From Sulfurospirillum cavolei (GTDB taxonomy: Bacteria > Campylobacterota > Campylobacteria > Campylobacterales > Sulfurospirillaceae), in assembly GCF_001548055.1 (NCBI RefSeq), contig NZ_AP014724.1, forward strand, positions 2,356,001 to 2,420,000: a stretch of DNA of 64,000 nt. The letters are read 5' to 3'. Each line of letters starts with the position of its first letter. Position 1 is the first letter of the stretch. Made by a program: the position numbers and the translations under genes. Below, in pieces: positions 11,673 through 55,318 of the stretch. The notes beneath the pieces are model-generated. The model saw nothing but the letters and a program-made list of their open reading frames with translations. It was not told the origin of the DNA and did not search any database.

Positions 11673-11739
11673 CCCTTCTCCTTTTAAAAATTTTGAAACG
11701 ACTTTTAAAGGCTTACATGTAAGCGTTCAAAACTCGTTT

Positions 11740-17520: not shown

Positions 17521-18357
17521 ATGAACGCATTTTCTTCGATTGAGGCGATTACGCTTCAACACTCCACTCGCCATATGGATAAGATTCAAGCGCAATTTCC
17601 CCAAGCACACACGCAAAAAGCCGTTGAAGCTTTTGTGAAACTCGATAAAGGGGTCGTTTTTATTTACACGGGATTTTACGTTGCGGGCTTCGCCGAAACG
17701 GACGGGCCCATAGGTGCTTATTTTCTTGCAAAAACGTTTCAAACCTTAGGCTTCACGCCCGTCATCATTACCGACCACTTTTGCGAAGACTACTTTTTCG
17801 AATTTAAAACGCTCTACATTCCTCTTGAGGGACTTTTTAAAGAGCAATACGAACTCTTGCTTCATACCTACAAACCCGTATGCCATTTTGCGATCGAACG
17901 TTGCGGACAAAACAAAGAGGGCAAATACCTCAATGCGCGCGGCGTCGATATTAAGGAGTTTACCGCACCCGTAGACGAACTCTTCAAACTGGGCTCTAAA
18001 ACCGCTCCGAGTTTCGGTATCGGCGACGGCGGTAACGAAATAGGTATGGGAAGCTTCGCCGAAGTGCTCAAAAACAAAGAATTTTTTTACGACTATTGCG
18101 TCATTGCTTGCGACTACCCGATGATCGCTTCGGTCTCCAACTGGGGTGGATACGGCTTTATCGCCGAGCTTGAAAAAGTCTTACATGTAAACGTTTTACC
18201 TAGCTTTGAAGAGGTTGAAAATTACCTTGCATTTATCGTTTCAAAAGGCTCGGTGGACGGCATCAAGCGCGAATCCACCATGTCCGTGGACGGTAAAGAA
18301 TGGTCGATAGAACCCCAAATACTTCAAGCACTCAAAGAGTACGCTACGAAAGGATAA
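17521..18357 (+). CDS. DUF4392 protein (D-glutamate cyclase C-domain homologue)
   Basis: 278 residues matching the DUF4392 domain that forms the C-terminal half of animal DGLUCY. Visible features: an F-I-Y-T-G-F-Y segment, E-T-D-G-P-I-G-A, a G-I-G-D-G-G-N-E-I-G-M-G loop near residue 165-175 typical of the domain, and A-C-D-Y-P-M-I-A-S-V-S-N-W-G-G-Y. No membrane segment. The DUF1445 gene lies divergently across 272 bases, so the two halves of the eukaryotic fusion are neighbours here. AAAGG precedes the ATG. The next gene follows after 3 bases. Confidence 0.85.
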   Translation: MNAFSSIEAITLQHSTRHMDKIQAQFPQAHTQKAVEAFVKLDKGVVFIYTGFYVAGFAETDGPIGAYFLAKTFQTLGFTPVIITDHFCEDYFFEFKTLYIPLEGLFKEQYELLLHTYKPVCHFAIERCGQNKEGKYLNARGVDIKEFTAPVDELFKLGSKTAPSFGIGDGGNEIGMGSFAEVLKNKEFFYDYCVIACDYPMIASVSNWGGYGFIAELEKVLHVNVLPSFEEVENYLAFIVSKGSVDGIKRESTMSVDGKEWSIEPQILQALKEYATKG

Positions 18358-52800: not shown

Positions 52801-52824
52801 GTAGCGGACAGCCTTGTCCGCTAC
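52801..52824. terminator. Bidirectional hairpin between convergent genes
   Basis: GTAGCGGACA and TGTCCGCTAC (10 bp, 4-nt loop) four bases after the permease stop, overlapping the 3' end of the convergent radical SAM gene. Confidence 0.7.
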
Positions 52825-53732
52825 ACGACTTTGTAAAAATCGACCCCTGCAATATTTTTCACATGTAAGCGTTTTTCGGCAAGCAAACGATTAAGGCAAA
52901 CAAGGCTTTGCTCATCAAAACAAAAGGCGACGTCTTCCGTACTTTGAGGCCTTCGCTTGAGAAGTTCTAAAATTTCCTCTTCGCTAAAACGACGTTTGGG
53001 TGCATCGTAACTTTTCCGATACGCAATATTGACATGTAAGCCCTCCAACGCGCTTGTAAGCTCGACCAAACGCTCGATGCTCACGCCCCTGACCGCGTAT
53101 GCCGGAGGACGATCGATCGTTCCTACGTCGATGCGGTCGGGTCGTATCTTTCGTAAAGCCGCACTTAACGCTTCAAATTCCGCTTGCGTATCGTTAAGCC
53201 CTTCAACGACCAATATCTCGATCACCAATTCGCCTTGATAGTGTTTTCGAAACGTTTGCATTCCTTCCATAATGCTTTCGATGTCAATGCCTTTGCGGGC
53301 ACGGTCCAATTTCTTAAAGCACTGAGGCGTTGCGCAATCAAGCGAAAGTTTGACGATATCCAAAGGATAAAGTGCTTCTTGAACCAACAAATCGCCGATC
53401 GTCGAACCGTTCGAGAGTATCAACAACTTTGGACGATTCACAAGCGCATGCATCGCTTCGATCAAAGGTTTCAAGTCGGGATAAAGCGTGGGTTCCCCGT
53501 TGGCGGTGAGCGTAACGACGTCGAGATTACGATGTATTTGTAAAGCTTTTTGCAAGGCATCTAAGACGCTTTGAACGCTCGGTGCATCGTGGATGGTATC
53601 GACCGTTTTAGCACCTTTGAGCTCACAATACAAGCAGTCGAAGTTACATTGTTTGGTCGAAGGACTTAAATCGATGCCGAGGGATTGTCCGAAACGTCTG
53701 GAGGTAACGGGACCGAAAATAATCTGACTGAT
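52821..53732 (-). CDS. Radical SAM protein with apparent AUC start codon
   Basis: About 303 residues. The iron-sulfur motif C-N-F-D-C-L-Y-C lies near residue 30 and L-T-A-N-G-E-P-T follows, as in radical SAM (MoaA/DUF-type, elongator-like) enzymes that act on unknown substrates. A start at the internal TTG (53633) would cut the cluster motif, so the true start is upstream. There is no ATG, GTG or TTG in that stretch. AAAGGA (53739-53744) stands six bases before an in-frame ATC (53732), and the sequence from there (S-Q-I-I-F-G-P-V-T-S-R-R-F) matches the usual N-terminus of the family. Confidence 0.82.
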   Translation of the reverse strand: MSQIIFGPVTSRRFGQSLGIDLSPSTKQCNFDCLYCELKGAKTVDTIHDAPSVQSVLDALQKALQIHRNLDVVTLTANGEPTLYPDLKPLIEAMHALVNRPKLLILSNGSTIGDLLVQEALYPLDIVKLSLDCATPQCFKKLDRARKGIDIESIMEGMQTFRKHYQGELVIEILVVEGLNDTQAEFEALSAALRKIRPDRIDVGTIDRPPAYAVRGVSIERLVELTSALEGLHVNIAYRKSYDAPKRRFSEEEILELLKRRPQSTEDVAFCFDEQSLVCLNRLLAEKRLHVKNIAGVDFYKVV

Positions 53733-53757
53733 GGAAAATCCTTTACATGTGAAGAAG

Positions 53758-53780
53758 TTTGCCCTCTTTTAGAGGGCAAA
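53758..53780 (-). terminator. Hairpin after hemE
   Basis: Ten-bp perfect inverted repeat (53758-53767 and 53771-53780), four bases past the hemE stop and upstream of the radical SAM gene. The loop is short and there is no T-run; likely a weak terminator. Confidence 0.5.
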
Positions 53781-53783
53781 TCA

Positions 53784-54806
53784 TTAGATTTTCGTGCGGG
53801 TTTGAACCTGTTCGATAAAATACTTGGCATGTTCAACCGGAATGTCCGGCAAAATACCGTGTCCGAGATTAAAAATATGCCTTTCGTTTTTCATCACGTC
53901 GACAATGTGCGCAATGCCTTCGTCTATGGCGTCTTTAGTGTAAAGACGGGTCGGTTCCATATTGCCTTGAAGAACGTATTTGTGTCCGAGTTTTGCTTTG
54001 GCAAGCTCGATCGGCGTCGACCAATCCACGCCGAACACGTCAAATTCGCCGTCAATTTTGTCCAGATAACCGCTAATGCCCTTCGGAAATAAAATGACCG
54101 GTACATGCGGAAATTGTGCTTTTAAATAGGCACTAATCTCTTTCATATACGACCAACTAAATTCAAAATAAGCACTCTGCTCAAGTGCCGCCGCCCATGA
54201 ATCAAAGATCATCACGACGTTCGCACCGTTTTCGATCTGTCTTTGCATATAGCCTTTAAGCACTTCGGTCACTTTTTTCAAAAAGGCATGCATAAATTGA
54301 GGATTCGAATAGATCATTTTCTTTACAAGAGCGTAGGTTTTCGTTCCTTGCCCTTCGATCATATACGTCGCGAGCGTCCACGGCGCACCGCAAAAACCGA
54401 TCAAAGCTTTGTCTGCGGCTAACTTGCCTCGAATCAGACGAATCGTCTCGTAAACGTATTCTAAGTTCTCGATCGCTTTTTGAACATCAAGTTTGTCAAG
54501 ATCGGCTTGGTCTTTAATAGGGCGTGAAAATACCGGTCCTTCGCCTTTTAAAAACTGAAGTTCCATACCCATTTCCAAAGGCACGACCAAAATATCGCTA
54601 AACAAAATCGCCGCATCCACACCCAAAATATCCACGGGTTGAAGCGTCACTTCACACGCTTTTTGCGGGTCTTTGCACAATGAGAGAAAATCTCCGGCTT
54701 GTGCTCTAACTTTCATATATTCGGGCAAATAGCGTCCGGCTTGGCGCATCATCCATACGGGCGTATACGCCGTTTTTTTTCCGAAACACGCATCGACAAA
54801 AATCAT
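53784..54806 (-). CDS. hemE: Uroporphyrinogen decarboxylase
   Basis: 340 residues, converts uroporphyrinogen III to coproporphyrinogen III in heme synthesis. Signatures: [13 protein letters not shown] near residue 18 and [13 protein letters not shown] near 140. The length is typical. The ATG overlaps the stop of the yqhA-like gene by one base, so hemE is coupled to the asd-yqhA transcript. Confidence 0.97.
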
Positions 54807-55318
54807 CAGTGCTTTCCTCCGTTTTTATGAAGAAAATAGAGTCCCAAAGAGAGTGCTAAAATCGAAAACGAAAGGTAAAGCATCTCTAGGGCGCCTTTAT
54901 ACTCGGCATGAAGGACGCGCTGAAAAAAACTAACGATCAAAACCATAACGATAACTTTTGCAATTTTATCTTTTAGTTCGTCCAAAGAGCTAACGTATAA
55001 AATCTTATCGCCGCCCGTACCTTTGGCTACGTCGATTTCGGAAACAAACAACTCATAAATACCGAAACCGAAAATCAGCAACACGACGGCAATCAGATAA
55101 AGATCGATTGCACCGATAATATCCGCGACGATGTCGGCGTGAAAGTTTTCGGGATGAAATCCCGCAAAGAAATACTGATACGTCTGTATCAAAACGTGGT
55201 ACAAATCGGCACTGGCTAAAAAGAAAAGCGCAAATGCCGCAAAAATACTAAAAATGACCGCTAAAAGGGTCATAAGTCTTGTCGACCACAACCCTTTCTC
55301 AAATAGTTTTTCAAACAT
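54806..55318 (-). CDS. YqhA (UPF0114) family membrane protein
   Basis: 170 residues with three to four membrane helices (about residues 16-36, 70-90, 115-135, 140-160) and the family-like middle [21 protein letters not shown]. Function unknown. The ATG at 55318 overlaps the asd stop by one base. C. jejuni has a similar gene after asd. Confidence 0.82.

Follow-up and report, generated by a model that had tools for sequence, protein, structure and literature searches.

Translation initiation at codons of the AUH type, i.e. ATA, ATC or ATT as compared with the NUG codons, is known from infC, which is reported to start with ATT in Escherichia coli and with ATC in Streptomyces (PMC5472188), and with AUA in Staphylococcus aureus (PMC13009471). 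In addition, S. aureus is described to harbor two further genes of this kind, cvfC1 (AUU) and ccpN (AUA), the reporters of which reached about 10% of the AUG level in RPMI, with up to 30% for ccpN in BHI (PMC13009471). A related case is provided by sigR of Streptomyces, whose GTC start is repressed by IF3, an effect of the factor that was shown in that system, and the same source points out that ATG, GTG and TTG are the codons on which the prediction of starts relies (PMC5472188). On an evolutionary scale, a survey based on ancestral reconstruction reports that 1 of 61,358 AUG starts and 1 of 5,080 GUG starts became AUU (PMC5622118).

The locus considered here lies in a window of 64,000 nucleotides from Sulfurospirillum cavolei (the whole stretch of DNA that was analysed, to which all positions refer unless stated otherwise) and comprises a gene for a radical SAM protein with a putative AUC start. 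A close parallel is infC of E. coli, Streptomyces and S. aureus, with which it shares a conserved start codon mismatched at the third base and an accompanying Shine-Dalgarno (SD) sequence; however, its product is not IF3, so that no direct feedback would arise, and infC of Sulfurospirillum itself, which also served as a control, has a TTG start in all 23 genus loci (L090-L112). Like cvfC1 and ccpN of S. aureus, it represents a conserved AUH start with an SD sequence in an ordinary gene. Unlike these, it flips between AUH and NUG within a single genus, belongs to another phylum and another set of genes, and is known here from sequence. With sigR it would have in common that a non-canonical start sets the protein dose, and in the Streptomyces case the annotated starts turned out to be wrong (PMC5472188), but GTC is not an AUH codon.

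Thus, the kind of start is already known, while according to the literature searches the member genes, their number per genus, the strict use of AUA in one of them and the switching between AUH and AUG are new. AUH starts in Sulfurospirillum or in the genes treated below appear in none of the listed titles and abstract openings of the open-licence literature. For a corresponding check in Campylobacter jejuni, Cj0133 and Cj1244 were used as gene numbers. As whole words, ATA, ATT, AUU, Cj0133 and Cj1244 are all absent from the main text of a start-profiling paper on this organism (PMC11955535).

Start codon and reading frame of the radical SAM gene

The stop-to-stop frame of the radical SAM gene extends from 53768 to 52821 on the minus strand (315 aa), of which the part from the ATC codon to the stop codon (52821..53732) encodes 303 aa with a Pfam Radical_SAM domain. 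Following an in-frame TAA 13 codons upstream of the ATC, the frame reads AAG AGG GCA AAC TTC TTC ACA TGT AAA GGA TTT TCC ATC AGT CAG ATT ATT TTC GGT, and in this sequence (L001, the window's own) none of ATG, GTG, TTG and CTG occurs between the TAA and the first cysteine of the CX3CX2C iron-sulfur motif CNFDCLYC (53625..53648, minus strand). TTG 53633, the earliest of the standard in-frame starts, is located inside this motif and would yield a protein of 270 aa (MYCELKG...). This candidate was rejected because it cuts the iron-sulfur motif and loses two of the three cysteines of CNFDCLYC, and the statement of the preliminary description that the conserved N-terminus and the first cysteine lie upstream of every standard start thus holds.

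Counted from the ATC as residue 1, F6, G7, P8, S11, R12, R13, F14 and G15 are invariant among 39 aligned relatives, and so are Cys 29, 33 and 36; the alignment comprises 39 of the 43 prepared references, the near-copies L005, L006, L016 and L017 being left out. Moreover, the predicted model of the 303 residues encoded from the ATC reaches a mean pLDDT of 91.4 and features a strand at residues 5-11. Taken together, the invariant N-terminal residues and the predicted strand require the protein to begin at ATC 53732 or close to it. This codon (53730..53732, minus strand) is preceded by an SD-like AAAGGA (53739..53744, minus strand) with a spacer of 6 bases, just as had been described before, and the same or a close form of it is present in all of the 23 genus sequences.

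Comparative evidence argues well for a real initiation of the radical SAM gene at AUC 53732. Hence, it is very probable that the gene is initiated at this codon by a 30S subunit placed by the SD sequence, despite a mismatch at the third base, and that the genus keeps AUH starts in this gene and in at least two others.

Start codon usage among Sulfurospirillum and its relatives

The radical SAM gene is present in 23 of the 24 genomes of the genus set, which consists of Sulfurospirillum. At the homologous codon these 23 genomes carry ATC in 11, ATT in four, ATG in seven and GTG in a single case, i.e. AUH in 15, more than chance would account for, and NUG in eight. The proposal of an AUC start is therefore borne out by AUC or AUU in 15 of 23 species at a position that is occupied by AUG or GUG in the remaining ones, and the suggested inspection of relatives for ATG at this very codon was likewise successful, given that ATG is also found there in 7 of 7 family members from other genera (L024-L030). 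Among more distant Campylobacterota loci (L033-L082), which were viewed by eye and not tabulated, ATG prevails at or near the site and some loci show GTG or TTG. The upstream gene hemE, used as a control, begins with ATG in all 23 of the same loci.

The AUC start of the window has proper SD spacing, and the AUH genomes generally lack a usable standard start: 11 of the 15, the window's own among them, have no NTG from the in-frame stop to the first cysteine, and the other four have one. In four of the 15 (L019, L020, L022, L023), the in-frame stop is located only 4 codons before the ATC or ATT, so that little alternative start is left there. Judged by eye, AUH genomes do not possess a stronger SD sequence than NUG genomes, and compensation of the kind reported for GUG and UUG is thus not evident. 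It should be considered that several internal isoleucine columns are also devoid of ATA, and some also contain ATG; hence, codon choice alone is no marker of the start of the radical SAM gene or of the sensor gene described below.

On the protein tree, at least six changes between AUH and NUG are required, three of which are forced by well supported branches. Shuffled labels need 10.3 changes on average, and 4 of 500 shuffles were as low as the observed number. The simplest story would be a single gain of AUH followed by several returns to NUG, with the tree being midpoint-rooted for drawing. Sulfurospirillum would thus keep an AUC/AUU start in this gene and have exchanged it with AUG/GUG, in one direction or the other, more than once.

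Further genes with AUH starts

In the search for further members, six genus genomes were compared over 400 kb each, which gave 311 ortholog groups of 4 to 6 sequences. The criteria were coding sequence that is conserved ahead of the first standard start, columns combining an SD sequence and AUH without a rival, and members in which no standard start lies close to where conservation sets in; the codons were then read. The screen for upstream conservation flagged 101 of 1771 rows and the last screen yielded 21 of 311 groups. Three of the 311 groups use AUH starts, namely group 109 (the radical SAM gene), group 197 (a TsaB-like gene) and group 132 (a sensor gene); since 17 groups (9 + 8) were inspected codon by codon and the others from their peptides, this count could miss one or two AUH genes, as well as genes in which a standard codon lies close to the AUH start. 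Besides the three genes, the screen for SD and AUH columns left group 45, which has no rival start column; it was set aside, its peptide having a methionine upstream. As a separate observation, a kinase-like membrane gene (group 121) has ATA in genome G023 and ATG at the same codon in the five other genomes.

The TsaB-like gene is located at 2493901-2494392 of contig C1 of genome G000 (locus L124, 15578-16069), on the minus strand, flanked by genes that by eye resemble lpxC and thrB, and it closely follows its upstream gene. Its assignment stays below the curated cut-offs, with 26.5 versus 69.3 bits for TIGR03725 and 18.2 versus 24.8 bits for PF00814. Of the 58 genomes that were matched, 30 were read, with G003 of the genus among the other 28. 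Within the 30 loci read (L235-L264), of which 21 belong to the genus and nine to four further genera of this family, the aligned start codon is ATA throughout. Between the in-frame stop and codon +5, all 30 loci are free of NTG; the stop lies within 5 codons in 19 of them, and an SD-like AGG or GGG is present in all. Two fully conserved internal isoleucine columns of the same gene are mixed, with ATT in 22 and 23, ATA in six and six, and ATC in two and one of the 30 loci, respectively. Because these columns vary while the start is always ATA, it is the codon itself that is conserved at the start, rather than just an amino acid.

The third gene, whose product is a membrane protein carrying a dCache_3 sensor domain, is located at 2482267-2483220 of contig C1 of G000 (locus L124, 3944-4897; plus strand). 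Its start is ATC in 15 and ATT in five of 21 genus loci (L265-L285), and the remaining locus, L277, has ATC in the DNA with an indel that shifts the frame. In 15 of the 20 loci found by pattern, no NTG occurs from the in-frame stop to codon +8. In G000, a TATAAT can be seen by eye about 20 bases before the SD sequence, and the gene upstream is oriented in the opposite direction. Genome G015, to which L277 belongs, also shows an infC with an internal TGA (L112) and a TsaB-like gene in two pieces (L253), so that genes of this genome look frame-shifted, which suggests that the G015 assembly carries indel errors.

The view that AUC starts are very rare calls for some qualification, as three of 311 groups use AUH starts in the bacteria investigated here. 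Elsewhere, the change from AUG to AUU is very rare, with the 1 of 61,358 starts in the survey cited above (PMC5622118). Measured against that survey, this proportion and the at least six changes within one gene are unusual, although annotation bias in the survey may account for part of the contrast.

The hemE-radical SAM intergenic region and alternative explanations

Upstream of the radical SAM gene lies hemE (53784..54806, minus strand, ATG start), which runs in the same direction and ends 51 bases ahead of the radical SAM start. An RNA hairpin of 10 pairs with a loop of 3 (53758..53780, minus strand) is located between the hemE stop codon and the SD sequence. The stem was found in 23 of 23 genus sequences, where it comprises 8 to 13 pairs, lies 19 to 27 bases before the start and features 17 different left arms, and the folded upstream stretch in Sulfurospirillum ranges from -12.6 to -18.9 kcal/mol. 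Among the other genera, L024, L025 and L028 possess a hairpin of 7 to 9 pairs, and L026, L027, L029 and L030, which stand outside the stem comparison, fold into weak stems only (-3.4 to -9.4 kcal/mol). That pairing is maintained while the arms change speaks for a function of the hairpin; as it also occurs with AUG starts, it is not tied to AUC. A terminator scan lists it on the plus strand only and not on the strand of hemE, with the stem being kept across the genus. No Rfam match was obtained in 53500-54000, and a promoter scan found none in 53500-54950.

Given the short distance and common direction of the two genes, the AUC might be used only through coupling, that is by reinitiation of ribosomes that finish hemE. 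This is reminiscent of L026, L027, L029 and L030 from other genera, where hemE, as seen by eye, reaches or enters the ATG. However, the hairpin intervenes in all 23 Sulfurospirillum genomes, the radical SAM gene has an SD sequence of its own, and the AUC/AUU start of the sensor gene in G000 does without coupling owing to its oppositely directed neighbor. Reinitiation is therefore an unlikely explanation, even though it fares best among the alternatives.

Somewhat less probable still is a decay of the start codon in a gene drifting toward silence, in which AUH would be tolerated because the product hardly matters. The repeated exchange of NUG and AUH would be in line with such a drift, as would the single genus genome without a match, though it is 78% complete. 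On the other hand, the protein is well conserved, the reading frame of the genus loci is uninterrupted between its start and its stop codon, and AUH codons are present across the deep splits of the genus. Furthermore, drift would not produce the invariable ATA of the TsaB-like gene.

Quite improbable is a true start elsewhere, either downstream at ATT 53723 or ATT 53720, both of which come before the invariant FGP, or at an in-frame TTG or CTG further upstream in some species. The spacing of the SD sequence suits ATC 53732, with 6 bases, but not ATT 53723, with 15, and ATG or GTG appears exactly at the ATC codon in eight of the 23 genus genomes, as does ATG in 7 of 7 family members from other genera. 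Upstream codons come into question in three of the 15 AUH genomes only: L003 and L008 possess in-frame CTG and TTG 16 and 14 codons upstream, with an additional CTG at +21 in L003, and L012 has a TTG 13 codons upstream, all of these upstream candidates falling within the hairpin or at its margin. They are absent in the other 12 and were rejected as a general start; the TTG of L020 is placed 17 codons downstream. Finally, a sequencing or assembly error, named at the outset as the observation that would overturn the AUC start, is practically excluded, for ATC and ATG do differ by a single base but AUH stands at this codon in 15 species-level genomes.

Identity of the radical SAM product

Membership of the product in the radical SAM superfamily is evident from PF04055 Radical_SAM, which scores 57.2 bits versus a cut-off of 29.5, and from the presence of CNFDCLYC. 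A finer assignment is less straightforward, as the matching NCBIfam models are all far below their cut-offs. The best Foldseek match in the PDB is TYW1 of P. horikoshii (2yx0, E 7.8e-10), and NifB, PFL-activase and viperin match the model about as well as TYW1. We take the product to resemble the COG0731/TYW1-like proteins, with which it shares the radical SAM core. It differs from TYW1 (4-demethylwyosine synthase) proper in that it scores 44.7 bits with the equivalog model, far under the cut-off of 317.95.

Proposed mechanism and regulation

According to the preferred reading, namely initiation at AUC 53732, AAAGGA would place the 30S subunit at this codon, and fMet-tRNA would pair with its A and U, leaving a mismatch at the third base. 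Since known AUH starts give weak, IF3-sensitive initiation, output is expected to be low and dependent on the fidelity of initiation: initiation at the AUC would probably be weak, amounting to roughly a tenth of that at AUG, and IF3 would presumably discriminate against it. Selection probably keeps the AUH start. A weak start might be retained either because little protein is wanted or because synthesis is meant to respond to how the initiation machinery is working, and the genes described above suggest that these bacteria retain weak starts for a purpose.

A possible, albeit doubtful, extension of this concept is a start-codon regulon of Sulfurospirillum and its family, in which about 1% of the screened genes, among them the TsaB-like gene with its probable role in tRNA modification and the flipping radical SAM gene, would have selected AUA, AUC or AUU starts and thereby follow IF3 activity or initiation fidelity. 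A feedback loop of IF3 via AUU, as in E. coli, is absent in the genus given the TTG start of infC, and infC was accordingly rejected as a fellow AUH gene. A tRNA scan of 400 kb of G000 yielded eight tRNAs, none of them with CAU. Together with relatives that naturally start with AUG, these genes allow comparative tests of what weak start codons are for, and their N-termini may well be misannotated.

An iterated palindrome in Sulfurospirillum

Immediately upstream of the radical SAM gene, a copy of the palindrome TTACATGTAA with one mismatch (53743..53752) runs into the SD sequence and on the minus strand holds an ATG-TAA (53748-53743). As this copy is one of many, its ATG-TAA need not be a leader ORF; the candidate was set aside since it lies within the palindrome and L010, L013, L020 and L022 have no ATG. 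Among the paper titles listed on such palindromes, none concerns Sulfurospirillum, and PMC4390886, which deals with highly iterated palindromes, does not name the genus.

TTACATGTAA is a highly iterated, HIP-like palindrome in most Sulfurospirillum genomes. Per 400 kb, it occurs 144-206 times in G008, G014, G016 and G023 versus 0.5-0.6 expected copies, and 44 times in G000 versus 0.37 expected; G009, with 1 copy per 400 kb, does not share this iteration. The sequence TTTACATGTAAA is present in 144 copies in the genome of the window itself and in 14 (G009) to 792 (G015) copies among the 24 genus genomes, while its reversed control amounts to 0 to 3 copies. The window contains 27 sites of TTACATGTAA at no more than one mismatch versus 2.25 expected, for instance at 11713-11722 and 18181-18190 besides the one at the radical SAM gene.
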